Part shown: in pieces, positions 5,946 through 20,410 of the stretch
Layout of the letters: each line of letters opens with the position of its first letter
How positions within the stretch are numbered: position 1 is the stretch's first letter
Origin: Oscillospiraceae bacterium
GTDB lineage: Bacteria > Bacillota > Clostridia > Oscillospirales > Acutalibacteraceae
NCBI GenBank assembly: GCA_015066525.1
Contig: SVOG01000028.1
Location: 1 to 47,179 of the forward strand
Direction of reading: 5' to 3'
Length of the DNA stretch: 47,179 nucleotides
Made by a program: the position numbers and the translations under genes
Notes under the pieces: generated by a model
Told to the model about the DNA's origin: nothing
Database searches by the model: none
The model's input: the letters and a program-made list of their open reading frames with translations, nothing else

Positions 5946-7916
5946 TTAGCTCACCACTTTGCCGAGAAAATACTGCGACGCGTAGTCGGACGACAGCAAA
6001 AAATCCTGGTGATTCAGCGCCGTATAGTAGAAATTCTTAAACTCGGGGGTATTGAAATACCGCAGGTCCTCGTCCGTAAACTGCACATTCTTCTTCGGCA
6101 CCAGCAGGATGGTAGAAGGATTCGGAATGCACCCCTTCGGTTTCCTGCCGACCTTAAGTACCGTACTGTGCACCGCTGCGACAAAAACATCGTCGCGCTC
6201 GGCAAACGCCGCAATATCGTATCGGCTGATGTCGTGCGAATACACACGGTTGCACCTGTCGCTCAGGTGAACAAAGCCGGTGCTGTCAATGCAAGCCGAT
6301 GAAATCACGCATAAATCACCGCCTTCGTGGTAATCGCGCTGCTTGAGCTGGCTGGAGCACTGCACGTCAAAAAGTCCGAACTGCAGTTTATCGTAAACGC
6401 TGTCAAAGCGCGCGTCGCGGTACAGCACCCAACAAGGGAGTGCAGCGTCCGCAAAGTATTTCTGCTCCTGCACGAGTCTGCTGTCATTGTCGAGAGAATA
6501 GATTTGTGTCGTGGACGGAAGCGCCGAGCGTTTCACTGCAATCGCTGCAAACTGTTCGGCGGCACCGCAGAAACCGTACGCGCCAAAGTCAAACACTTCG
6601 GCGATGCGGCAATCCTGCACAGTCTTTCTCTCCTCGCTTGAAAAGAATGCCTTGCGCACAAGCAGAATATCCGTCTGCGCGCTGAAGGGCGCAGACGCAG
6701 ACAATGAGAGCGAAATATCATAGTTCCCCTCCTCTGCCGCCTCGGGCGCGAGAAGTTCGCACGGAGAATGGGCGTCAAGAAGGCGAATGGTCTGCGTTGT
6801 CCGCTCATCAATATCGCTAAAATAGAATTTTGCGCTGCAGTGTTCTTTTATCACAAAGAGGAGCACAAGCGGACAGTAGCCGCTCACCAGCACGCGCGGC
6901 TGATGTGCCTCAAAGACAGCGCTCTCGCGTACAAACTTTTCGGCATAATCGGGGTTCATATAATAATTACCCAGCTTCAGCCGACGCGTAGTTGCCTTCT
7001 CCGCGAGCGCACAGAGCTGCGCAAAGTTGAGATGATCGGGATTTGCCTTTAGATACGCCGTGAGCTTTGAAAAATCAGTGAGTTCTTTTTGATTCAGTAA
7101 TGCGCTGATGCGACGGTTTTGGCTGACATAATCCCAGGGCACTTTCGGTCGGTTCTTCTCCCTTACCGAGGGTGCGGGCTGAACTGCCGTCGGGATTTCA
7201 GCACCAAGGCAAATGTCGTAAAGATTCACCGTAATGCTCTCCCACTGAACGGTAAGGTCAAGCAGATTTTTCAGCACAAAAAGTATCATTCCGTAATCCC
7301 GGCACGGCGCGTCCACGCGCTGATCGGCGCGGTGCTGCATCCCGCTTTTGTCCGTCATTTCCACAGAAAACATCCGCGCACCCGCATTGTCCACCGCGAG
7401 CTTAAAAGTAAGCACTTCGGCGAGGTATTCGAGCGAAAAGCGCTCCGCGTCGATACGGGCGCTGTACGGATTCAGATGATTATCCGTGCTCTCGCAGGGT
7501 ATCACGCTCGCCGCGATACCGAGCTCTTCCTCGACGGCGCTGCGTACTTCGGAAGTAAACACTGCGATATCCGCCTCGGTGATACCATCCGTTTCAAGCA
7601 GGCATTCGTCAAAGGAACTCAATCGCGCGAATCCGAAGCGCGAACAAATCCCAAGGAACGCGGACGCTCCGCGGCGCATAATGTCAAACCGTGGCGCCTC
7701 CGCATATAAATCGGCACACTGAAGCAGAGCCTCGCTGAGGGGCTCTCCTGCATACATATGATATTTATCGCAGGCATCATTGACGCCTAATATATAGCCG
7801 TTTTCAGCGACACAGCAGGGGCGTTTGCCGTACACACGGCTCAGCCCCGTCCTGCCCGAAAGCAGCTGGTACTGATACGCGGCATTATGTAATGCAATTC
7901 TGAAATACTGTGCCAT
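5946..7916 (-). CDS. Y-family polymerase-like / degenerate N6-methyltransferase / target-recognition fusion protein
   Basis: 656 aa, no known name. Residues ~1-240 follow the course of UmuC/DinB: YFRIALHNAAY at the start, YGKRPCCV, GEPLSEAL, SSFDECLLETDG (~100-111, matching SIDEAF-DLTG), EELGIAASV, and a little-finger-like end (VQWESITVNLYDI). The first catalytic Asp (as in CDVNAFY) is replaced, while Asp103-Glu104 remain. Residues ~335-465 resemble an N6-adenine methyltransferase: Gly345 and acidic FSDID (366-370), SAPF (~408) where NPPF is expected, then VFDFGAYGFCGAAEQFAAIAVKR as in HsdM-type proteins. Residues ~510-650 look like a type I/Eco57I-type target-recognition domain ending LRYFNTPEFKNFYYTAL. 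Both enzyme centres look inactive, suggesting a DNA-binding or scaffold role (inference). It lies 12 bp after a hairpin that follows the 41-aa peptide gene; RBS weak. Confidence 0.6.
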   Translation of the reverse strand: MAQYFRIALHNAAYQYQLLSGRTGLSRVYGKRPCCVAENGYILGVNDACDKYHMYAGEPLSEALLQCADLYAEAPRFDIMRRGASAFLGICSRFGFARLSSFDECLLETDGITEADIAVFTSEVRSAVEEELGIAASVIPCESTDNHLNPYSARIDAERFSLEYLAEVLTFKLAVDNAGARMFSVEMTDKSGMQHRADQRVDAPCRDYGMILFVLKNLLDLTVQWESITVNLYDICLGAEIPTAVQPAPSVREKNRPKVPWDYVSQNRRISALLNQKELTDFSKLTAYLKANPDHLNFAQLCALAEKATTRRLKLGNYYMNPDYAEKFVRESAVFEAHQPRVLVSGYCPLVLLFVIKEHCSAKFYFSDIDERTTQTIRLLDAHSPCELLAPEAAEEGNYDISLSLSASAPFSAQTDILLVRKAFFSSEERKTVQDCRIAEVFDFGAYGFCGAAEQFAAIAVKRSALPSTTQIYSLDNDSRLVQEQKYFADAALPCWVLYRDARFDSVYDKLQFGLFDVQCSSQLKQRDYHEGGDLCVISSACIDSTGFVHLSDRCNRVYSHDISRYDIAAFAERDDVFVAAVHSTVLKVGRKPKGCIPNPSTILLVPKKNVQFTDEDLRYFNTPEFKNFYYTALNHQDFLLSSDYASQYFLGKVVS

Positions 7917-8109: not shown

Positions 8110-11100
8110 TTAAACTGTCGCGCGTGCGCCATTTGAATATTCAATCGCGTTAACCGTAGTTGACTTATACGTGATGTCGTAGTTCACGAATCCTCTGAAG
8201 CCAACCGCATTATTGAAGCCCTTAGCGTTCGAGAGTGTGTAAGTAAACTGACCGGTCGGCAGGATGTTTGTAACAGTTCTCTTCATCGTAGCATTCTCTG
8301 CGGTAAAGGTCTTTTCGAAACCTTCTGCACAGTTGCTCTTGATGATGACACCGTAGCCGCCAAGATTCTTAGCGCCGTTTGTAACTCTTACAAATACGCG
8401 TACCTTCGTATACTTCTGTGTACCGGCTACATCCTCGCGATTTGCCATATCAGCACGCTGTACTGCAACAAACGGAAGCTGATTATCAAGCTTGTTCTTC
8501 AGCACTGCATCCGAGTTGATGTCAGCATATCCCGGAATGGACGCGTCAATCATAGCTGCTGTCAACTCGCCGCTGAGCGTACCGTTGTTATCAAGGACTG
8601 CCTTGTAGGTATTGGCGCTGCTGCTGTCGACATCCATAATCGGAACATAGTTCTCATTTGCGCAAGCGTAGAAGAAATAATCCTGATTATACGATGCAAT
8701 CTGATACTTGCCTTCCGCGGTCTTCACTGCCCATGCGACGAATCTTACGTTGCTCAGTGAATACTTTGTTTCTACTGCATCTTCAATGGATGCGTTGTAA
8801 GTAAGATTAATTCTTGTATCGTAATCAGCCTCAGTCTGAGATACGGTACCGCCGATAGCGCTGAATGCGTATTGTCCCACTACCGAATAATGCGGTCTGA
8901 AGATATACGCGCCGCCCGACTCACTCATCGTCCAGTTTTCGAATCCGTAGAACGGCACCTTGTCAGCTGTTACCTGGTATGTACCGATGGTAATAGTTGC
9001 TGCTTTAAGCGCGTCGCCGCTCGGAAGCGTTGTGCCGCTCGGAACATAGTAAACCGCCTTAATCTGATTATAAATATCGTTAATGACGACCTTCATATCC
9101 GATGCTGTTTCTGACTCACTGTCTGAAACGAGTGCCAGAACGGCAAGGTTATTCGTTACGGTCTTGGTGAAGCTGCTGTTTGCGCCGGAAAGCTTCGAAG
9201 AACTAATTGCATCTTCTCCTTCGTGGTTATCCGTGAACGAATAGTTCGTGATACTCCATCTGTCGACGCTCTTCTTTGCAATCGCGTTCTTTAAGTTACT
9301 GTTCGTAATCTTATCAAGGCTGATTTCAGCAGGCTCGCCGTACTTAATGCTCGAATAAATCTTCTCGGTGCCAATCGGTTCCTCTTCATTCTCATTCTGT
9401 ACAGTCAGAGTTACCCAAAGTCTCTTGATGTTGGCATCCTGGTTCAGATTGGTGATTGCTGCGAGCATATCATTCGTCTGGACGCTGACATTATTGCTGT
9501 TCTTAATCGGCGTGCCAACGGCAAATGAACTATTGGTCGATTCGTTATACGCGTCATAGTCTTCTGTCGTCAGTTTATGATACGCGGCGTTATACGCGGT
9601 CTGCTTCGCAGTATTAAATGCTGATACCGCGCTGTTGATATACTTATCTGTATCCACATTCTCCGCTACGGTATTTGCATAACCAAACGGCTCATAGTTT
9701 TCATCACTATCGACAGAAAGCAGCCCATCGTAAGCAGCATTCGTTAAATCGGACTTAGATACGATTGTTTCCTGCTCGATAGTGGTATCGTTCTTATCAA
9801 CAACACCGCTCGAAAGAACCTCGTACTTACCGACGTTTGACTTATCGGGCGTATCGTCGTAGTACTTTTTACCGTCATCGTACTTAGTCGCAAACAACAT
9901 CCATGTGTCGTAGGTGTACTGCTGTACGTTCTCGACATAGTTATAACTCTCACGCGTAGTCTGCTTAGTGAGAAGTTTCTCATACTCAGCAAGCGGGTTA
10001 AGATAAGTATCCGCAATCAGTTTCTTGGTATTAATGCTATTCTTAGCATTTGTGATATAGGTATCTGATTTGGACTCATCGTTTCTGTCGATAACAAGAG
10101 ACGCGATATTTTCGTCATAGTAATCGTTATAATTACTGATTGACGAAGTCGTGTATCTATTGTCTTCAAAACTGTTTGTCTTCTTATCTTCGATTTCCTC
10201 AATCAAAGCATCGTATGCCGTCCAGTTTTGAGCGTCCCACACTTTCTCGCTACCGGCACATTCCATACAGTAACTGGTCGAATAGCCGTTATCATCGGTT
10301 GTTGCGCCATCGTGGTGCGTCCAGCCGTCATTATAATCAACTTCATCGGAATATGCGCAGTGAGCGGTGTTCTCTGTAGTGGTCTCCACATATGTCTCGT
10401 TTGAATGAGGAACATGCGTACCGCTCGGGGCAATCGTTCCGTCCCAAACACCCGTGCTGGAGGTCCACGAATTCAGACGGTGTGTATTGGTTCCGGCAAT
10501 ATGAATCGGGGCTGAATTATCCGGAATGGCATCACCGCTTGTTTTATTGTTGATATTGTTGCCCGCATGAACAACGGCATCATAAGTGGTGCCGTCATAC
10601 ATTTTGTATGTTATAGTAAAGTCCTTTTTAACAAGGTTGATGTTACCCCATTTTGTAACAGCATCGTTTATTGCAGTTGCACAAGCGGATACCTGTGTTG
10701 CAACAGAACCTGCAGGAGTTGAACTTGTTAAGAAGTTGTGTGGATTGGCATCTGCAATTGCTTTGAGTGCAATAAGAGCATTGATTCTTGACTTTGTGGT
10801 ATACATCCACTGAGCCTCGCCGTCTTCGTCCATAAGGTAATCATAAAGCTGAAGTGCTGTTTTATTACCTGCATTAGTGCTCTTTGTTTCTGTTGTGCCT
10901 GACTTTACAATATCATAAATCGGTTTGTAGTTTATAACATAGTTATTTGATAACGAGGTAAATGATCCATATTTATGTTGACGTCCGCTCTGCTTATAAC
11001 TTGTATGGGCATCAAACGAAATGTTAGTGTCAACGACTGAATAAACATTGTGAGTATTAAAATAGTTCGTATTAAACACAAGCTTATTCCACCAAAAACG

Positions 11101-14100
11101 CGAAGAGCCATCTCTTTGAGAGTCAGGCGACTCAGAAGTATCATCTATATATGAAAAACTCTCAGTAGCAGCAATATTATTCGCTGCCCATTGTTGCCAA
11201 TCTCTACCATAGCCCGCCCAATTCTGTGTCAAGCTAAAGCACTCGCTTGTTTTAATCTTAGCATAATGGATAATGTGGGAAGAGCCATTAGTATCATTAC
11301 ATACTGTTTCAACCATAATCGGTGCAATTGGGTCGTGTCCCGAAGCACCATCATAAACAAGGACCGTGTTCAATGGCATTGCGACTTTCCAGTTGACACG
11401 ACCAACACCAACAGCTGTGTCTCCCACACCGTTGCCCGACCAACTTGTTGTGTTTTGAGGTGAATACAGCACGTTTTTGTATGCAGCACTTGGAATTGCA
11501 TCGTTTTTATGATATGGCTGAACAGTAAACTCCGGAACTGTTGCTAAATCTGCTCTGTTAGGTCTGATTGTAGCAAGCAGTGATTCCTCAGCGGTTTTGC
11601 CGATGTCGGTTGCGGTTGGTGAAATTGTTACCTTACCATATTCACCGGAACTTCTGGTATCAATATTATTTCCGCCAACTGTGCCTCTGCCGAAGCCAAA
11701 GGTAAGCCATAGACTATCCGGCTTATCAACGGTATCTATCGCACCGCCTACATAGGTGTTATCTACCAAAAGACAGGTTGCATAGCCGTTAAATGTGATT
11801 CTGTATCTGTGAGAATTTGATGTATCGGTTGCTGCAGTTGACAATGCAGATGCATTTGTATATGTGGCCTCAGTACCGTTTACATAGAATTTACCGTTTG
11901 CAGTAATTACAATATAGGTGTGATCATTAGCAGAACCGTTGCCGCCTTTTGTAATTGCGGCAATAACGTGTGAGCCGTCCTGATTTGTGCCTGCACTCTT
12001 ATAGGTAAAATCAACTGTATATTCGTCACCGTTAAGGATTTCGCACACTTGTGAATCTGCTGAATAAAAAGCACCTGCATTAAGTGTGATTTTGCCGCCG
12101 CCGGTAGAACCGCCTGAACGATACCATGCAACCTCGTAATTATGACCTGCGGTATCTTTCATCGTGAAGCCTTCATTTGCATTGCCGAAGTTTGCATCGT
12201 TAGCCCAGTAGTATTCAACCGTATTAGGTGTGAGTGTTCCAAAACGAGAAACGATTGCGTTGTACTCTGCAGGAGTAATCCTGATAACCGAGCCATGGCG
12301 AGGTGACAGATAGTTAACATTTGTTGTTGCGGTCGACGAGGAATTGAAGCTATACGGATTTGCCGCCTGATAAATATTATATTCGCCGGAGCCATAAAGG
12401 TCGGTCATAAGCGCATAGCTACCGTCTGTCAATTCATAGACCTGCGGACCTTCCATGCCTGTATCCGAAAACTTTGTGAATGCAGAGTACTTTGTAGCAT
12501 CGTACGAATTACCCTGCTGTCCAGAAGTAATGGTTGTATACTGTCCGTTCGCATGAGGAGACGCAGCCATATAAACCTTGTTTTCACCACTGTCCTCATC
12601 CTTAAAATACATATAATACATACCATTGTAATATGTGATATCAGCGTCTATAAAATTGTTGCAATTCGGGAATATAAGCTGTTTCGGTGTACCCTCAAAT
12701 TCTTTGAAGTCAGATGTGTATATATAATACAGTTTTGTTTTGCCATCAATAAAACCAACTGACCAATAAAGCATATACTTACCTTTTGCGGCATCCCATA
12801 TAGCCTGAGGCGCCCACGCGCGGGAAACAGTGCCGCCTGTGAGTGAAGTGCACATATCAGTAGTATCAATTACCCAAGGAGTAACGCTGCCTATTGCAGA
12901 CAAATCATTAACATCGTAAACAAGCAGTTTTGAGTTGTTGCCCCAGTTTGTGCCGTTTTGCGTGTCAAGGTCCGTTGCAAGAATATAATAGCCCGAGCTT
13001 ACCGCGCCTGTGGAAGTGTTGCGCTTGTTGAGAATATACGGGTCGCGCACATGCTTTGAAGTTGGAACGCCGCTTGTGCTGTTTGTCGGATACTGCGGAA
13101 TGGACCAGCTTGCAGTGGAATCCCACACCGGCAGACCGTTATTCACCGGCTTAAAATTAATACCGTCGTCAGATACAGCATAGTGAAGCGATTCACCGTT
13201 AGTGCTGTTGCCGGTAAAGTATGTGTACAGATACTTTGTTTTAGATGCCTGCGAAGTATCTGAGTTAACACCAGAGTAAATTTTAATATCTTTCCAGCCG
13301 ATATTTGTAAGGTAGTGACCTTTTGTGTTACCAAGATAAAGTCCGGTAATATCATCAGGATTCAAACCGGAAGTTTTCGTTGCGCCGTAGTTGATAACTA
13401 TTGCACCTGTTGTAACATCTTCAACATATGAGCCAATATAATCATCCGCATAATACATTACGTATTTGTACTGCTTATTTAGCGAAAGATTGGCGTTTTG
13501 GGAACCAATTGTATATACTCCGCCATCGCCGCCGTTTGAGTTTTGCTGGTAAGCGTTATGGTTTCGTCCCCATGCTTCTTGTCCAAAAAACTGCCTGTCA
13601 TAAATACGCGCTGTTTGATACCAAAACTTTGCATTACTTCTTGTGTCAGTACTTAATTTAATGAAAGTTGCATCGTCAGATGTAATACCATATGATCTAC
13701 CTTTAAGTGTTTCAGTACCCGCCTTCGTTGTACCTGTCAGGTAAAAGTCAACCTCGACCTTAAAATTGTCAAGCCCTGTAAACGGAGTATCAGTTGTGTC
13801 TCCATTATAACTTGTCATATAAAGAAACGACTGATGATCATCACTTGTACAGAAACCTTTAGTTGGGTCTGTATCCGGTTCAGTATTATTCTCCCAAATG
13901 TAGGCATTCCAACCTATTTTGTTACCTCCAAGATCTGGAGAAACAGATGTATAAAATCTGTTGCCGACATTATTATCGTTTATGTTTTCGTTATACCATT
14001 CCGCTCTTGTAAAGTCGGTTGATGCAACCATTTGCCAATAGTCCGTGCTCGGTACATCGGCAGCCTCGGCTGTGTCAGGACTGGACAGTACGAATGTCGG

Positions 14101-14166
14101 CAGCATTGTCACTACCATCAGCAGGGACAATACGAGCGACAACATTCTTTTCGTAATTTTTTTCAT
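8110..14166 (-). CDS. Giant secreted GH43-type / LamG-like carbohydrate-active protein (2018 aa)
   Basis: Signal peptide MKKITKRMLSLVLSLLMVVT followed by a cleavage-like region ending in EAA. Residues ~40-300: LamG/concanavalin-like domain. ~310-635: five-bladed propeller of GH43 type, with RDPYI (~374, catalytic Asp), WAPQAIWD (~451), IDADITYYNG (~507) and MEGPQVYEL (~571, general acid Glu), as in arabinanases/xylosidases. ~650-860: second LamG-like domain. The rest has long helical FIVAR-like stretches (~1250-1500), a Cys/His cluster (~1210) and beta-rich domains to the C-terminus; no sortase motif or membrane anchor. Probably binds and trims arabinan/xylan-type glycans. Start set 30 bases inside the longest frame because AGGAGG lies 9 bp before it. 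A promoter for it is not seen in the flanking leader; it may be supplied by inversion of 14368-15689. Confidence 0.85.
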   Translation of the reverse strand: MKKITKRMLSLVLSLLMVVTMLPTFVLSSPDTAEAADVPSTDYWQMVASTDFTRAEWYNENINDNNVGNRFYTSVSPDLGGNKIGWNAYIWENNTEPDTDPTKGFCTSDDHQSFLYMTSYNGDTTDTPFTGLDNFKVEVDFYLTGTTKAGTETLKGRSYGITSDDATFIKLSTDTRSNAKFWYQTARIYDRQFFGQEAWGRNHNAYQQNSNGGDGGVYTIGSQNANLSLNKQYKYVMYYADDYIGSYVEDVTTGAIVINYGATKTSGLNPDDITGLYLGNTKGHYLTNIGWKDIKIYSGVNSDTSQASKTKYLYTYFTGNSTNGESLHYAVSDDGINFKPVNNGLPVWDSTASWSIPQYPTNSTSGVPTSKHVRDPYILNKRNTSTGAVSSGYYILATDLDTQNGTNWGNNSKLLVYDVNDLSAIGSVTPWVIDTTDMCTSLTGGTVSRAWAPQAIWDAAKGKYMLYWSVGFIDGKTKLYYIYTSDFKEFEGTPKQLIFPNCNNFIDADITYYNGMYYMYFKDEDSGENKVYMAASPHANGQYTTITSGQQGNSYDATKYSAFTKFSDTGMEGPQVYELTDGSYALMTDLYGSGEYNIYQAANPYSFNSSSTATTNVNYLSPRHGSVIRITPAEYNAIVSRFGTLTPNTVEYYWANDANFGNANEGFTMKDTAGHNYEVAWYRSGGSTGGGKITLNAGAFYSADSQVCEILNGDEYTVDFTYKSAGTNQDGSHVIAAITKGGNGSANDHTYIVITANGKFYVNGTEATYTNASALSTAATDTSNSHRYRITFNGYATCLLVDNTYVGGAIDTVDKPDSLWLTFGFGRGTVGGNNIDTRSSGEYGKVTISPTATDIGKTAEESLLATIRPNRADLATVPEFTVQPYHKNDAIPSAAYKNVLYSPQNTTSWSGNGVGDTAVGVGRVNWKVAMPLNTVLVYDGASGHDPIAPIMVETVCNDTNGSSHIIHYAKIKTSECFSLTQNWAGYGRDWQQWAANNIAATESFSYIDDTSESPDSQRDGSSRFWWNKLVFNTNYFNTHNVYSVVDTNISFDAHTSYKQSGRQHKYGSFTSLSNNYVINYKPIYDIVKSGTTETKSTNAGNKTALQLYDYLMDEDGEAQWMYTTKSRINALIALKAIADANPHNFLTSSTPAGSVATQVSACATAINDAVTKWGNINLVKKDFTITYKMYDGTTYDAVVHAGNNINNKTSGDAIPDNSAPIHIAGTNTHRLNSWTSSTGVWDGTIAPSGTHVPHSNETYVETTTENTAHCAYSDEVDYNDGWTHHDGATTDDNGYSTSYCMECAGSEKVWDAQNWTAYDALIEEIEDKKTNSFEDNRYTTSSISNYNDYYDENIASLVIDRNDESKSDTYITNAKNSINTKKLIADTYLNPLAEYEKLLTKQTTRESYNYVENVQQYTYDTWMLFATKYDDGKKYYDDTPDKSNVGKYEVLSSGVVDKNDTTIEQETIVSKSDLTNAAYDGLLSVDSDENYEPFGYANTVAENVDTDKYINSAVSAFNTAKQTAYNAAYHKLTTEDYDAYNESTNSSFAVGTPIKNSNNVSVQTNDMLAAITNLNQDANIKRLWVTLTVQNENEEEPIGTEKIYSSIKYGEPAEISLDKITNSNLKNAIAKKSVDRWSITNYSFTDNHEGEDAISSSKLSGANSSFTKTVTNNLAVLALVSDSESETASDMKVVINDIYNQIKAVYYVPSGTTLPSGDALKAATITIGTYQVTADKVPFYGFENWTMSESGGAYIFRPHYSVVGQYAFSAIGGTVSQTEADYDTRINLTYNASIEDAVETKYSLSNVRFVAWAVKTAEGKYQIASYNQDYFFYACANENYVPIMDVDSSSANTYKAVLDNNGTLSGELTAAMIDASIPGYADINSDAVLKNKLDNQLPFVAVQRADMANREDVAGTQKYTKVRVFVRVTNGAKNLGGYGVIIKSNCAEGFEKTFTAENATMKRTVTNILPTGQFTYTLSNAKGFNNAVGFRGFVNYDITYKSTTVNAIEYSNGARATV

Positions 14167-14367
14167 AAAAATTGCCTCCTTTTCGTCAAAACACATATTG
14201 TGTTCGTCGCAGTGCTCGGGCGCAGTGCTGAGAACACGGGATGTGTTTTTCCTCTCAAATCAAAATTTCGCAAAGCTGCTTTTTGATTTGTAGAACTTGG
14301 GCAAAATCTACGCCTATCGCTGCGGCTTACTGACTACGCACACAGCGATTGCATAAATTTGCTCTCA
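14167..14367 (-). promoter_or_regulatory. Structured leader of the 2018-aa gene, no promoter seen
   Basis: No convincing -10/-35 pair on the minus strand. It holds a palindrome AACACA-TAT-TGTGTT (14190-14204) just before the RBS, and a perfect 10-bp inverted repeat CAAATCAAAA / TTTTGATTTG (14256-14265 and 14281-14290). It may form the 5' untranslated region of transcripts starting inside the invertible segment. Confidence 0.4.
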
Positions 14368-14394
14368 TTTCATTTATTTGTTTCATATATGAAA
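14368..14394 (+). repeat. Left inverted repeat of the recombinase segment
   Basis: 27 bp containing ATTTATTTG followed by the palindrome TTTCATATATGAAA. The reverse complement of 15663-15689 matches it at 26 of 27 positions. The surrounding 14364-14398 is also self-complementary (10-bp arms CTCATTTCAT / ATGAAATGAG). Confidence 0.8.
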
Positions 14395-14453
14395 TGAGCT
14401 GCATTTTCATGAAAAACGCGGGCTTACATCAATGCCCTATTAAATATAATTGT

Positions 14454-15458
14454 CTACGCGAGAAGGGTCTGCATCTTCTCGATGGAGGTCTGCTTTAACT
14501 CAAATGATGAGTGGACATAACGATTCAGTGTGATTTTTGTATCCGAGTGTCCGAGAAGCTCCGACACGGTTTTCGCGTCCACACCCGCTTCAATACACCG
14601 CGTCGCAAAAGTGTGGCGCAGGGTGTGAAAGGTGACGCCTGTCAATCCGCACTCCTTGACATAACGGGAAAAAATCATCTGTAAATACCGCGGTTCGGTA
14701 TATTTCAGCGTAGCGGTTGAGAGCAAATACCCTGCGCCCTTCAGACTGTTATAATATTTCAGTAATTCGGGGGGAAAGGGTATCACCCTGACCGAGTTTT
14801 CGCTCTTTGGCGGCTGGATTATCACCTCACTCTTGCCGTTTTGGCTGACACGCGCCATCGTTTTGTTGACCGTAATGGTCTCGGGGGTGATATCCTCCCA
14901 CCGAAGCGCACATAGTTCGCCGATTCTGATGCCCGTATACAGCGCAATCAGAACGCCGAACTTATGCACGTCCGAGTTAATAGACAGATACTCGATTAAC
15001 TGCTTTTGCTCGGCGATACTGAGACACCGCGGCTCTTTCTTATCCTCCCTTAAGTACTTAATTTTGGGGATGCTGATGCCGTACTCTTCAGCAGCAAAAC
15101 GGAGAAGCATATTTAATACAATTAATATATCATTAATCGTCTTGTTGCTCAGTCCCTTGTCGCGCAGGTCGGCGGTGAATAATGTCACTAAGTTTCTGTC
15201 GATATCATCAACGGGAATATTGCTCAGACTGCCGATATGATTTTTATAGACACTTTTATACTTTATCATTGTATTTGGCTTGGCAATCAGCCTTGTTTCG
15301 GCTATCCACATCGTGTAAATATCGTCAAGTCGGGGAGATTGCTGTTTATCTGCACCCTGTGACGGCTCGGCGCCGCCGGGTTCGATTTTCTTTTTGATGC
15401 CGGGGAATAAATGCCATGGGTTCATTCGTAATTGCTTTGTCTTTTCAATAAGCTGCAT
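14454..15458 (-). CDS. Tyrosine recombinase / site-specific integrase (XerC/D-like)
   Basis: 334 aa from the preferred start; AAAGG lies 9 bp upstream of this ATG, whereas an ATG 9 bases earlier (15467) would have the RBS touching it. The N-terminal ~45 residues are variable, ~45-130 is a SAM-like core-binding domain (YKSVYKNHIGSLSNIPVDDI), and ~145-325 the catalytic domain: Arg178 in TGIRIGEL, Lys218 in PPKSENS, His278/Arg281 in HTLRHTFATR, His304 in LLGHSDTKIT and Tyr314 nucleophile in NRYVH. All catalytic residues are present. No excisionase, phage or conjugation genes are adjacent, and the gene is enclosed by inverted rather than direct repeats, so an inversion role is more likely than integration. 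Transcription from it would run left towards the 2018-aa gene. Confidence 0.93.
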   Translation of the reverse strand: MQLIEKTKQLRMNPWHLFPGIKKKIEPGGAEPSQGADKQQSPRLDDIYTMWIAETRLIAKPNTMIKYKSVYKNHIGSLSNIPVDDIDRNLVTLFTADLRDKGLSNKTINDILIVLNMLLRFAAEEYGISIPKIKYLREDKKEPRCLSIAEQKQLIEYLSINSDVHKFGVLIALYTGIRIGELCALRWEDITPETITVNKTMARVSQNGKSEVIIQPPKSENSVRVIPFPPELLKYYNSLKGAGYLLSTATLKYTEPRYLQMIFSRYVKECGLTGVTFHTLRHTFATRCIEAGVDAKTVSELLGHSDTKITLNRYVHSSFELKQTSIEKMQTLLA

Positions 15459-15494
15459 ATTTACCATCCTTTCCGTTTTTCTTATTACAGCTCA

Positions 15495-15524
15495 TGTAAA
15501 ACAATGGTTGTTTACACTTAGTGT
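15495..15524. promoter_or_regulatory. Palindromic operator-like sites upstream of the recombinase gene
   Basis: TGTAAAACAA / TTGTTTACA-type palindrome (15495-15516) overlapping ACACTTAGTGT (15514-15524), 37-66 bp before the recombinase ATG. A TTGACA on the minus strand (15522-15527) overlaps them but has no good -10. They may be binding sites for the recombinase or a repressor. Confidence 0.4.
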
Positions 15525-15589
15525 CAATTTATAACACCCTCCGCGCAGAAAAATATGAACTTTTTGTTAATTTTTTTCACTAAAAACTA

Positions 15590-15618
15590 TTGCATAAACA
15601 AAATTCCTATGATATAAT
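15590..15618 (+). promoter_or_regulatory. Outward-facing promoter inside the invertible segment
   Basis: TTGCAT (15590-15595), 17-bp spacer, TATAAT (15613-15618). In this orientation there is no gene for it: transcription would cross the right repeat and stop at 15690-15713. This supports a switchable promoter. Confidence 0.75.
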
Positions 15619-15662
15619 GTAAAAAAATATATGATGTATTAGTGGGACTTTGCGTCCTGATA

Positions 15663-15689
15663 TTTCATATATGAAACAAATAAGTGAAA
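15663..15689 (-). repeat. Right inverted repeat of the recombinase segment
   Basis: 27 bp beginning TTTCATATATGAAA and continuing CAAATAAGTGAAA. It differs by one base from the reverse complement of 14368-14394. Confidence 0.8.
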
Positions 15690-15713
15690 CCCCCGTTGCC
15701 GAAGCAACGGGGG
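15690..15713. terminator. Strong terminator abutting the right inverted repeat
   Basis: Stem CCCCCGTTGC / GCAACGGGGG with CGAA loop, preceded by AAA and followed by TTTT, so it can act both ways. It ends the phosphatase operon (stop at 15731) and blocks the outward promoter of the switch. Confidence 0.85.
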
Positions 15714-15730
15714 TTTTGTGTTGTTGGGTA

Positions 15731-17839
15731 TTAATCGTAGTTTTTGCGGATGGTTAAGATGTTCTTGCCGTCGTTGTAGGTATAATCCATAGTATCCATT
15801 GTGTTTTTCACAATGAAGATACCATAGCCGCCGATGTCGCGCTCATCCGCCGAGAGCGTGGTGTCGGGGTCCTCTTTTTCCAGCGGATTATAGGGAACGC
15901 CGCTGTCGGTAATGGTAATGGTGACGCCGGTATCGTCGTGGTCGGCGCGCACGCTCACCTTGCCCGTATCGTCGCCGTACGCATAGCGTGCGACATTGCT
16001 GACAAGCTCGTCCATTGCAATCTTTAGCTGCTTTTTGCTCTTTTCCGAAAAAGGAAGGCTGTCCGCGATATTGCCGACAAAATCAGCCGCAAGCGTCACA
16101 TTTTCGAGCGTCGCATCCACAATCAGTTCATTATCGTCGCCCTTGAGTTCGAAGCAGAGCATCGTCAAGTCATCAAACTGCGGCGCGTCACCGACAAATG
16201 CGTCGACGGACTCTTTAACTGCTGTAAGTATAGCGCTTGGCTCGCTGTCTTTGGAACGATTGAGCGCGTCAATCGTTCTTTCGATACCGAACAGTTCCTT
16301 TGCGGCATTCGTCGCTTCGGGTACGCCGTCCGTATACAGGAAGAGCTTGGAGCCCTTATGCAGCTGAATCTCATAATTGCGATATTTCAAACCTTCCATA
16401 CCGCCGATAACAAAGCCGTGTTTATCCTCAAAGAGTTCAAAATCACCGTCGGGCGATTTCACAATCGGTTTTTCGTGGCCGGCATTCGCTGCGGTCAGCA
16501 GTCCGCTCTTCAAATCAACGATTCCCAGCCATACGGTAACGAACATTTCCTCGCGGTTATTGGCACAAATCTGACGATTGACAATCGTCAGCGCATCCGC
16601 CGGGGTATTGCCGTTCATAACAGCATTCTTAATCAGAATCTTGCTCATCATCATAAAGAGCGCGGCAGGGATTCCCTTGCCGGACACGTCCGCCATAACC
16701 ATCGCCAGATGCGAATCGTCGACGAGAAAGAAATCGTAAAAGTCGCCGCCGACTTCCTTGGCGGGTGTCATACTTGCGTAAACATCCAAATCCTCTCTTT
16801 CGGGGAAAGCAGGATAGATATTCGGCAGCATATCCGCCTGAATGCGGGTGGCGAGTTCAAGCTCGGCACCGATTCTCTCTTTTTCGGCGGTGACCGCAGT
16901 CAGGTGAGCAATATAGTCATTAATATCATTTTCCATTTGTTTAATGGAATCACTCAGCGTTTCAATCTCATCGCCTGTATGAATGCTGAGTTTGGATATC
17001 AAGGAGCGATTATTGGCGTCCTTGCCCTTGTCCTCGACAAACGACCTTGCTGCTTTGGATAGCAGGTTAATGGGATTCACAAGGGTTTTATTGACGCCTT
17101 TTTGAATCAGCAGAATCAAAATGCCGGCAACAATCAAAACGATGGCAATGAGCGTAATGAGATAGATAAAACCTTCCGTAACCACTTTCGTCATCGAAAT
17201 ATCGACACCGACAAGCGCGACGGGATTGCCGTTCGCATCGCGGACGGGACGCATACAGGAGCAGAGCCATCCGTCGTCAGGATTATTCGAAACAAATGCC
17301 GGAATGCCGTTTTCAAGCCCGTCCCTATCAACAATTTCTGCCGAGACGGGACGCACTGTTCCGAGCTGATATGCCTCATCCGTATGGTCTGCATCAAAGA
17401 TATAGGTAACCGAATCGCCGTCAATTACCTGCAAATAAATATACTCGATATCGTTGCGTCCCTTTGACTGGTCTGCAAAGGAAAAGAGGGTATCCAGCAT
17501 CTGCTGATAGTTTTCATCTTTCAGCGCGTTCGCCTTTTCATCGTATGCTGCACGGTAAGCGTCGTCGTTATTATACTTCTCGTCGTCGTAAGGTCCGATA
17601 GCCTTGACCTCGTTATAATAGCGCACGATATCCTCAGCGCTCATCATGGAAGCGGCTGTATCTGCCAGCTGCTCGGACAGTTTCTTATAGTGATTATACA
17701 TATTATAACTATAAAAAATGCCGCTGAGCGTAGAGGAAATCATCGAGAGTATGAACGCAGCAACCAGAACAACGGTTACCGACTTTTTACGCAGGGAGCC
17801 AACTCGTTTCTTTTTATTATCTTTCATTACAGACACCAT
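15731..17839 (-). CDS. Membrane SpoIIE-type PP2C phosphatase with HAMP and anti-sigma-type HATPase domain
   Basis: 702 aa. Residues ~20-43 and ~224-247 are membrane segments enclosing an extracellular Cache-like sensor (~44-223). A HAMP/coiled linker (~248-330) follows, then a SpoIIE/RsbU phosphatase domain (~331-565) with the metal-binding motifs GGDFYD (364-369), DVSGKG (384-389), YTDG (502-505) and FDD (555-557). The C-terminus (~570-702) is a GHKL/RsbW-like domain with an N-box DELVSNVARYAYG (610-622) and a glycine lid GGYGI (670-674). It should dephosphorylate an anti-sigma-antagonist-type protein on an external signal, but no STAS partner or sigma factor is nearby. Last gene of a four-gene operon, starting 3 bp after the GNAT stop; internal starts a few codons later (ATG at 17827) are equally possible. 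Confidence 0.93.
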   Translation of the reverse strand: MVSVMKDNKKKRVGSLRKKSVTVVLVAAFILSMISSTLSGIFYSYNMYNHYKKLSEQLADTAASMMSAEDIVRYYNEVKAIGPYDDEKYNNDDAYRAAYDEKANALKDENYQQMLDTLFSFADQSKGRNDIEYIYLQVIDGDSVTYIFDADHTDEAYQLGTVRPVSAEIVDRDGLENGIPAFVSNNPDDGWLCSCMRPVRDANGNPVALVGVDISMTKVVTEGFIYLITLIAIVLIVAGILILLIQKGVNKTLVNPINLLSKAARSFVEDKGKDANNRSLISKLSIHTGDEIETLSDSIKQMENDINDYIAHLTAVTAEKERIGAELELATRIQADMLPNIYPAFPEREDLDVYASMTPAKEVGGDFYDFFLVDDSHLAMVMADVSGKGIPAALFMMMSKILIKNAVMNGNTPADALTIVNRQICANNREEMFVTVWLGIVDLKSGLLTAANAGHEKPIVKSPDGDFELFEDKHGFVIGGMEGLKYRNYEIQLHKGSKLFLYTDGVPEATNAAKELFGIERTIDALNRSKDSEPSAILTAVKESVDAFVGDAPQFDDLTMLCFELKGDDNELIVDATLENVTLAADFVGNIADSLPFSEKSKKQLKIAMDELVSNVARYAYGDDTGKVSVRADHDDTGVTITITDSGVPYNPLEKEDPDTTLSADERDIGGYGIFIVKNTMDTMDYTYNDGKNILTIRKNYD

Positions 17840-18673: not shown

Positions 18674-20410
18674 TTATTCCACCTCCACAGTAAGGGTGTT
18701 GAAGCCGGAATAGCGACGGTAGAAGAACTGCTTAGACTTTGACTTCACCATCTGAATACCGAGTGACGCGAGCTGCTCGTCGTCATCGTAGTCCTTACCG
18801 GTTTTCATATCGAAGGGGTTGAAGCTGACCGCATTATCACGGAGATGAATCACGACGGTACCGTTTTTTTCAAAGCAGAGCGTCAGTTGGATATATTCAT
18901 CGCCCTTTTGGTTAAAAGCATTTTCGATAATCGCCTGGCAAATTTCCTCGACGCAGAGAGAAACACAGTAACTCTGTTTCATATTCGCGTTATTTGCCTC
19001 GCAAAACGCCTCTGCTTTTGCCAGCAAATCGGAAATATCGGCAGAATTGGTGTCCAGCAGATAGGTAAAGACGCGGGAGGTGTCAGTTTGTCGCTTCGCA
19101 TAGGCAAACGGCGCCCAGATAATCAGCGTCATCACTTCCGCGCACAGGAAGGTGAGCCAGAACCAACGGAAGCCGTAAACCGAAAACAGGAGTGCAAAAA
19201 GCAGAAAACAGACAAAGGTACGCAGTTGATTAATCAAAAATACGATGCGCTCTTTCTTAATAGCCTGGAAACAGGAGCTCCAGATGATATTCAGTCCGGC
19301 AGGTATCACCGAAAGGCAGAACAGTCTCACGGCGAAAGTACCCGTGGAAGTGGCGGCGCCGCTCAGACCAAACAGTTCACAGATGGACGGAGCAAAGAGT
19401 GCAAACAATAATGCAATCACGCCGCCGCTTACAACACCGATGACCATACCGAGCTGCATAATACGCTTAATAGCGGCACGATTATGCTCCGCATAAAAGG
19501 TGGCACTCAATGGCTGCACGGTATCACCCAGCGCCGTATAAATGGCGAGTGAAACATAGGACACATCCTGCACGACGTTAAACACGGCGAGTGTGCCGGA
19601 ACCGCCAATACGCAGCAGAAGATTATTGACCACAATCAGCGTAATAAACTGACCGATATAACCAAATGAGGATGACATACCCGTTCTGAGGGCTGCCAAT
19701 ATTTTTTTGAACTCGGGTTTGACAAAACGGAAACGCAAAATCGTCCATTTTCTGGTAAAGTGGAATAAGAAGATAATGACGCCGACCATCTTACCGAGAA
19801 CGGTCGCATATATCACGCCGCGCACATCAAGCTTAAATCCCATAATGAATACGGCGCTCGCTACAACATCCGACAGGAAACCGATGGTATACCCTGCGCT
19901 CGCCAGTTTTTCATTATCGTCGCAACGTATACAGTAATAAAGAAGAAAGTACAAAAAGGTAAACGGCGCGCCGATGAACATAATCTGCAAATACTGCCTG
20001 GTATAACTCCACAGTGCGCCGCGCGGCGAGCCTGCGCCGAGAAAGCGCAGAATATACGGCATCGTAAGCAGACCGACGAGACCGATAACAATACTCGTTA
20101 CCACGCAGACTACCGTCATCTGCGAAAAAATGTTGATACCCTCTTTGGCATCGCCCTTACCAAGCGCGTGGGCATATTTCACGGAGGCGCCCACGGCGAT
20201 ACCGACATCGAGCACATTATAAATCATATAAACCGGAGCAACGAGCGACATCGTGGCAAGTCCGACCTTACCAAGGCGGATACCGACGAATAATGCGTCG
20301 GCAATATCGCCGAGCGCCCAGCCGATTGCCGACATCAGAGTAGGCCAAAAAAGCCGACGAAACATACGGTCGGTGAAAGCATGGCTATTTAATACTGTCG
20401 TATTGCTCAT
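18674..20410 (-). CDS. MATE-family transporter fused to a C-terminal HATPase (RsbW-like) domain
   Basis: 578 aa. Residues ~1-445 form a 12-helix MATE transporter (opening RRLFWPTLMSAIGWALGDIADALFVGIRLG; repeated 'G-x-x-x-A' helices and two-fold internal similarity). Residues ~455-578 are cytoplasmic and not part of normal MATE proteins: VEEICQAIIENAF resembles the N-box of GHKL ATPases, LRDNAVSFNPF the D-x-x-x-x-F-N-P motif of RsbW/SpoIIAB-like domains, and LGIQMVKS the lid. The fusion hints that transport, or a flippase-like function, is coupled to a phosphorylation or partner-switch signal. It overlaps the upstream DUF2156 gene by 4 bp (ATGA) and is followed immediately by the GNAT gene. 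Substrate unknown. Confidence 0.88.
   Translation of the reverse strand: MSNTTVLNSHAFTDRMFRRLFWPTLMSAIGWALGDIADALFVGIRLGKVGLATMSLVAPVYMIYNVLDVGIAVGASVKYAHALGKGDAKEGINIFSQMTVVCVVTSIVIGLVGLLTMPYILRFLGAGSPRGALWSYTRQYLQIMFIGAPFTFLYFLLYYCIRCDDNEKLASAGYTIGFLSDVVASAVFIMGFKLDVRGVIYATVLGKMVGVIIFLFHFTRKWTILRFRFVKPEFKKILAALRTGMSSSFGYIGQFITLIVVNNLLLRIGGSGTLAVFNVVQDVSYVSLAIYTALGDTVQPLSATFYAEHNRAAIKRIMQLGMVIGVVSGGVIALLFALFAPSICELFGLSGAATSTGTFAVRLFCLSVIPAGLNIIWSSCFQAIKKERIVFLINQLRTFVCFLLFALLFSVYGFRWFWLTFLCAEVMTLIIWAPFAYAKRQTDTSRVFTYLLDTNSADISDLLAKAEAFCEANNANMKQSYCVSLCVEEICQAIIENAFNQKGDEYIQLTLCFEKNGTVVIHLRDNAVSFNPFDMKTGKDYDDDEQLASLGIQMVKSKSKQFFYRRYSGFNTLTVEVE

Follow-up and report, generated by a model that had tools for sequence, protein, structure and literature searches.

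The cassette and its surroundings in the window

The window, a 47,179-nt stretch of contig SVOG01000028.1 from an Oscillospiraceae bacterium, carries a tyrosine recombinase gene that lies between two inverted repeats, with the gene for a giant secreted protein to its left and a SpoIIE-like phosphatase gene to its right (Table 1). The recombinase is complete, as an earlier note on this DNA had described: its 337-aa frame is open, it matches Phage_integrase (PF00589, E 4e-25), and R181, H281, R284, H307, and Y317, presumably the catalytic residues of a tyrosine recombinase (R...HxxR...H...Y), fall in invariant columns of an alignment of 15 sequences. The best solved relatives are the Int proteins 6en0, 6emy, and 6emz, which we take to be Tn1549 Int.

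Table 1. Features of the cassette and of the adjoining genes, in window coordinates.
Feature	Position	Strand	Remarks
Predicted target, 2018-aa secreted protein, GH43-like at residues 310-642	8110-14166	-	Starts at 14166
Leader between left repeat and target	14167-14367	-	Structured RNA; contains dispersed ~50-bp palindromic repeat, 14241-14292
Left inverted repeat, putative recombination site	14368-14395		Arms TTCATTTAT / ATATATGAA around 7-bp spacer TTGTTTC
Tyrosine recombinase, 337 aa, SAM-like and catalytic domains	14454-15467	-	Without GENIYKRKDGRWE-type N-terminal domain
Outward promoter-like site TTGCAT-17-TATAAT	TTGCAT 15590-15595, TATAAT 15613-15618	+	-10 ends 43 bp from right repeat
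Right inverted repeat	15662-15689		Same 7-bp spacer, inverted orientation
Hairpin outside promoter-side repeat	15687-15716		14 bp from stop codon of SpoIIE-like gene
SpoIIE/HATPase_c_2 phosphatase-like gene, non-target side	15731-17839	-	Ends at hairpin

The repeats that enclose the recombinase gene had been given as 27 bp long with 26 of 27 positions matching; the enclosure is confirmed and the length is revised to 28 nt at 96% complementarity, with arms 1266 nt apart that delimit a segment of 1.32 kb (14368-15689). The pair scores 25, and a score of at least 18 was reached in 0.9% of 1000 draws in which family flanks were swapped at random. No further copy of the repeat was found in the genome of origin (66 contigs, 74% complete) at E ≤ 0.001. 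Inverted arms around a short spacer are the form expected of a tyrosine recombinase core site, and each repeat copy is an imperfect palindrome of this kind, in which the arm TTCATTTAT reads TTCACTTAT in one copy and the other arm is ATATATGAA; the arms match at 15 of 18 positions over both sites and the spacer is the same in both. Among the related loci described below, a single clear best spacer length (4 to 9) could be assigned in 36, the two spacers being identical in 33 of these, and the arms match at a mean of 13.8 of 18 positions vs 10.5 of 18 in shuffled sequences.

The promoter that the earlier note placed inside the repeats, pointing right, is present in the sequence and reaches z 2.2 against shuffles under our own weight-matrix scoring, although its -35 element is weak: it matches TTGACA at three of six positions and is therefore omitted by the standard scan, which asks for at least four. 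It aligns with TTGAAA-17-TATAAT in the cassettes of the two nearest relatives (L036 and L224). Directly 3′ of the -10, a AAAATATATGA block (15619-15640) is conserved in the window, L036, and L224 and resembles half a recombination site; it may be an additional site at which the recombinase binds, overlying the start of the promoter. Another promoter-like site, at 14423-14450 on the plus strand, was discarded, as shuffles of the region yield a mean of 4.3 such sites.

Outside the promoter-side repeat a strong terminator had been proposed. The hairpin is there. In the standard scan it counts as terminator-like on the minus strand only, which is the direction of the phosphatase gene, and a looser scan accepts it in the outward direction as well (-21.3 kcal/mol). 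Because it lies 14 bp past the phosphatase stop codon and is listed in that direction only, it may be the phosphatase operon's own terminator, serving both directions, which qualifies the suggestion that it guards this operon from the promoter.

On the opposite side, the standard scan of the 200-bp leader gave no promoter-like site toward the 2018-aa gene, in agreement with the earlier note. The leader RNA (14140-14367) shows strong predicted structure (z -4.56), which may contribute to regulation or to transcript stability; all seven Rfam matches near the cassette are under their gathering scores. The ~50-bp palindrome within the leader has many further copies across genomes of the genus, mostly at ~77–98% identity among the matches listed, and would appear to be a dispersed REP- or MITE-like element. 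The stretch beside the repeat (14300-14395), including GTGTGCGTAGTCAGTAAGCCGCA, is shared with positions 4814-4919 of L224, the only long match among those listed from 80 genomes.

The protein beyond the leader begins with a signal-peptide-like N-terminus (judged by eye), as the description of it as secreted had implied. Its residues 310-642 match the alpha-arabinofuranosidase model NF052546 over positions 3-339 of 341 (E 2.5e-18; 66.6 bits vs a cut-off of 500), and Pfam gives no match for the protein, including no GH43 match for this segment. Three hand-picked homologous ORFs do match GH43 (PF04616, E 5e-12 to 2e-11), and one of them also matches GH43-type solved structures (E 2e-5). The predicted target looks GH43-like and sugar-degrading. 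Parts of the protein have homologs in 60 of 80 genomes of the genus, its own genome counted. In L224, from another species, the same type of cassette adjoins a large protein (at least 1594 aa) with a like signal peptide: the first 29 residues are common to the two proteins (22 identical), the gene starts align over 74 bp and the repeat plus leader over 108 bp. Pairwise comparison of the two proteins gave a weak further stretch at residues 933-1088 (E 8e-5) and no GH43-like part in the L224 neighbor.

Two other genes of the window were noted for their domains. One (18674-20410), two genes from a SpoIIE-type phosphatase gene, encodes an odd 578-aa fusion of a MATE transporter domain with a C-terminal HATPase_c_2 domain. 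The product of the other (5946-7916), 656 aa long, matches a Y-family polymerase (IMS) over residues 31-138, its second match being weak.

A family of recombinase-enclosing cassettes

The family considered here consists of 79 loci, namely the best-scoring matches (18 plus 60) and the window; two matches that score within this range (G189:C20 and G128:C8) and all weaker ones were left out. The recombinase gene lies between inverted repeats in 69 of the 79 loci vs none of 13 other integrases of the genus that served as controls. Four of these controls have less than 600 bp on one side; among loci flanked by 600 bp or more in either direction, the counts are 61 of 65 for the family and 0 of 9 for the controls. 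The threshold for enclosure was reached in 3.7% of 1000 draws with randomly swapped flanks. Family cassettes measure 1158–1623 bp (median 1427) and their repeats 14–36 bp. Ten loci failed the repeat test (L036, where the contig ends, and L048, L053, L244, L247, L248, L255, L257, L270, and L279), L255 having a 26-bp repeat outside the set geometry. A quick tree (92 rows) contains one branch, with a support of 100, that separates the enclosed recombinases from all 13 controls.

A scan of genome contigs with the window recombinase returned two distant loci, and a scan of viral contigs returned 80 loci, nine of which have a repeat pair scoring at least 15 (among them L219, with an odd geometry). 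The nearness of cassettes to contig ends might have pointed to mixed populations, but this idea was abandoned, as control integrases also lie near contig ends. A cultured strain, Ruminococcus albus 7, has a cassette on its plasmid pRUMAL02 (L291): 24-bp repeats (score 15) enclose the site-specific integrase RUMAL_RS19405, and TTGACT-17-TATAAT points outward. Two genomes, G358 and G424, have five family matches each (L231, L265, L267, L270-L272, L277, L279, and L280); some of these loci adjoin homologous 310-aa integrase-like genes, and opposite orientations occur within G358. An erm(B) gene adjoins the cassette in L249 and L251, and cassette-bearing stretches that are 99–100% identical are found in L249, L251, and MT836186.1, which represent genomes from two families and a scaffold from human feces. 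L037 has, ~5 kb away from its complete cassette and beyond duplicated zinc-ribbon genes, a short reversed stretch (12539-12718) that matches the recombinase over its final 60 residues.

Family members adjoin unrelated genes in different species. Eleven of 13 putative target proteins chosen for scanning have Pfam matches, comprising BspA-type LRR proteins (L223, L241, and L278), S26 signal peptidases (L233 and L229), an FtsK/FHA protein (L050), a protein kinase (L051), a cohesin protein (L042), a SpoVT-like protein (L253), a LytTR response regulator (L260), and a concanavalin-like protein (L224), and no Pfam match was obtained for those of L044 and L231. The target lengths for L044, L223, and L224 are minima, because the ORFs run past the sequence stretch that was used.

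Promoters were scored in 63 loci (L255, L268, and L270 being left out), of which 56 leave 100 bp or more from repeat to gene, with a hand-entered weight matrix and shuffles that preserve base composition only. On these terms, an outward sigma-70-like site has a mean z of 3.44 and exceeds 1.6 in 95% of the 56 cassettes; it often reads TTGACA-17-TATAAT, at a median of 32 bp inside the repeat. In the direction of the recombinase the mean z is 0.26, with values above 1.6 in 14% of the 56, and no promoter toward the recombinase was recognized in the window. That most cassettes show no consensus promoter from which the recombinase would be expressed speaks against a switch.

The direction of the recombinase gene bears on the state of the target. 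If the cassette inverts, the 2018-aa gene might nevertheless be transcribed in the orientation sequenced, by read-through from the recombinase gene, inversion altering only the level or timing of expression. The two genes are codirectional, the recombinase stop codon lies 58 bp from the repeat, and the looser scan detected no terminator between them. The missing promoter toward the recombinase and the length and structure of the leader argue against this course of events, as does the presence of a terminator (≤ -10 kcal/mol) after the recombinase gene in 20 of the 63 cassettes scanned. Read-through of this kind is possible but doubtful.

Cassettes were classed as ON or OFF by the first gene of at least 100 aa within 350 bp that reads away from the cassette, which for 69 cassettes gave 31 OFF, 17 ON, and 21 without a class. 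Of the 48 classed cassettes, 20 have a hairpin of ≤ -10 kcal/mol with a T-rich tail outside the non-target repeat, and one has such a hairpin outside the target-side repeat (Fisher p 2e-6), a bias to be read with the caveat that genes often end on the non-target side, so that their own terminators are expected there. The bias holds for either orientation of the cassette.

The window recombinase differs from most of the family at its N-terminus. A domain of the form GENIYKRKDGRWE, matched by no Pfam model, opens most relatives' recombinases and is likely to be an arm-type DNA-binding domain. The same relatives' cassettes hold direct repeats of the form (A/C/T)(C/G)GTCA, at least one being present in 56 of 64 motif-armed cassettes, at a mean of 2.42 per armed cassette vs 0.22 in shuffled sequences and 0.22 on the other strand. 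The window recombinase lacks the domain, and its cassette holds no GTCA-type repeat. L043 likewise lacks both, while L037 has no repeats and a degenerate domain. The link between domain and repeats is strong and not absolute, since eight armed cassettes are also without GTCA repeats; the domain was called by a regular expression, which overlooked L223 and L268, where it is present by eye.

The missing domain in the window could be a sign of decay, and a switch that has become locked, in which the family inverts and the window copy no longer flips, has to be weighed. The two nearest relatives of the window recombinase, L036 and L224, both possess the domain, which together with the lack of GTCA-type repeats would fit such a loss of function. 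The recombinase frame, however, has stayed open, its presumed catalytic residues fall in invariant columns, and both repeats have kept the same spacer; moreover, domain and repeats are absent together, in L043 too, as would fit a simplification to an Xer- or Fim-like enzyme. We regard a locked cassette in the window as improbable.

Orientation among relatives and a model of the proposed switch

Alignments show opposite cassette orientations between related genomes or loci. For L221 and L222, loci that belong to two species of the genus, the flanks align in the same direction (91% and 73–79% identity) and the 1.4-kb cassette between them (92%) is reversed, the alignment breaks falling at the repeats. 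Forty locus pairs have at least 300 bp of matching flank; some loci enter several pairs, so the pairs are not independent. Inversion is seen in 21 of them and the same orientation in the other 19. Of the 21 inverted pairs, 19 show the switch of flank side expected from an inversion, the two that are at odds with simple inversion being L154 with L254 and L154 with L263; one inverted pair (L267/L272) consists of two loci of a single genome. Orientation carries no signal on the recombinase tree, where the 48 classed cassettes require 14 changes vs 14.1–14.2 for shuffled labels. L224, the locus nearest to the window by tree path, shares the window orientation, and a single orientation is also found in the near-identical L249, L251, and MT836186.1, as well as within the pairs L250/L253 and L233/L234. 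No near-identical pair in opposite orientations was seen among the nine viral-contig loci with repeat pairs.

These comparisons also bear on whether the cassette is a small mobile element related to ICE integrases, its repeats being the element ends and the recombinase moving the segment rather than inverting it. The match to the solved Int proteins and the occurrence of family members beside unrelated genes would suit an element of this type, while the sites in the window are inverted and not direct, the reversal in L221/L222 breaks at the repeats between matching flanks, and terminators favor the non-target side. Movement without inversion is very unlikely, and a reading of the cassette as a transposon was set aside for the same inverted sites and preserved flanks. 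Spread of the cassette and its inversion are compatible with each other.

Segment 14368-15689 is, in our view, very probably a self-contained promoter flip cassette built on a tyrosine recombinase and predicted to be OFF in the orientation sequenced. The enclosed recombinase would act on the two inverted core sites and invert the segment together with its own gene, and the outward promoter, located between the right repeat and the start of the recombinase gene, would ride along. As sequenced, this promoter would fire to the right into the hairpin terminator; in the inverted form it would fire to the left, over the left repeat and the structured leader, into the GH43-like gene, which is predicted to be ON in that state, the -10 then ending 272 nt 5′ of the target ATG. 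What the sequences show directly is the repeats, the open recombinase frame, the promoter-like sequence, the hairpin, the recurrence of this layout in the family, and opposite orientations between related genomes; we infer catalysis in cis by the window enzyme, the occurrence of both orientations in the population, activity of promoter and terminator, and the ON and OFF states of expression.

The central proposal of the earlier note, an invertible promoter switch with its recombinase inside, is supported by most relatives, through the enclosure of the gene, the outward promoters, and the opposite orientations of related loci. Its prediction that the target is OFF here stands in so far as the promoter faces the hairpin and points away from the 2018-aa gene; the OFF state itself is a deduction, as the target might be transcribed in this orientation given that the recombinase gene reads toward it with no terminator detected behind.

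For the family as a whole, we lean toward a broader reading, in which a large and hitherto undescribed clade of integrase-derived tyrosine recombinases would constitute a portable, self-contained bistable switch, ~1.4 kb of promoter, recombinase, and sites, placed beside varied surface, secretion, and signaling genes across a bacterial order, with the window member as a minimal inverter that has shed the arm-binding domain and the arm sites.

Relation to known inversion systems and integrases

In the fim switch the recombinase genes lie outside the invertible element, and in the Salmonella Hin/fljBA system an outward promoter in the segment drives the neighboring operon. The likeness to fim-type switches that the earlier note drew therefore holds in part: like E. 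coli fim and the promoter invertons of gut bacteria, the window combines a tyrosine recombinase, short inverted repeats, and a promoter that either faces a surface or secreted gene or is turned from it, but its recombinase gene lies inside the repeats, which brings it closer to Hin. The hin gene is located within the Salmonella invertible segment (excerpts of PMC5903667). The two systems share this placement of the recombinase gene and an outward promoter, which in the window is predicted to serve a neighbor. They differ in their enzymes, Hin being a serine recombinase with a Fis-bound enhancer (excerpts of PMC3798978), whereas the window enzyme is a tyrosine recombinase and most of its relatives add GTCA-type repeats.

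An enclosed tyrosine recombinase is also found in the pneumococcal PsrA/hsdS inverton, where the gene lies within the inverting locus (excerpts of PMC12324116); unlike the window cassette, that locus swaps parts of hsdS coding sequence and flips no promoter. Inverton group 139 of Clostridia has been linked to nearby tyrosine recombinases, and the two members with printed coordinates are ~255 bp, too short for a recombinase gene (excerpts of PMC11892184). In the portions of the open PMC literature on inversion, recombinases, and R. albus that were covered, no tyrosine recombinase promoter cassette family with the gene inside is described, and papers beyond PMC could describe one. Because the recombinase lies inside, the segments exceed 1.1 kb, and surveys for short intergenic repeat pairs may miss segments of such length.

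The Tn916/Tn1549 ICE integrases provide the closest solved structures by sequence. The window cassette is unlike these elements in that its ends are inverted, its gene sits in a ~1.4-kb cassette, and the tree places its recombinase apart from the genus's control integrases. The N-terminal arm-type domain of the ICE integrases is absent in the window protein and has a motif candidate in most relatives. As domain and GTCA repeats tend to be missing together, the family offers a natural series on the role of arm sites in inversion. If the proposed reading is true, the family would be a tyrosine recombinase counterpart of Hin in many families of one order, and giant secreted proteins, signal peptidases, an EssC-like ATPase, or a protein kinase may have gained heritable on/off control from it.
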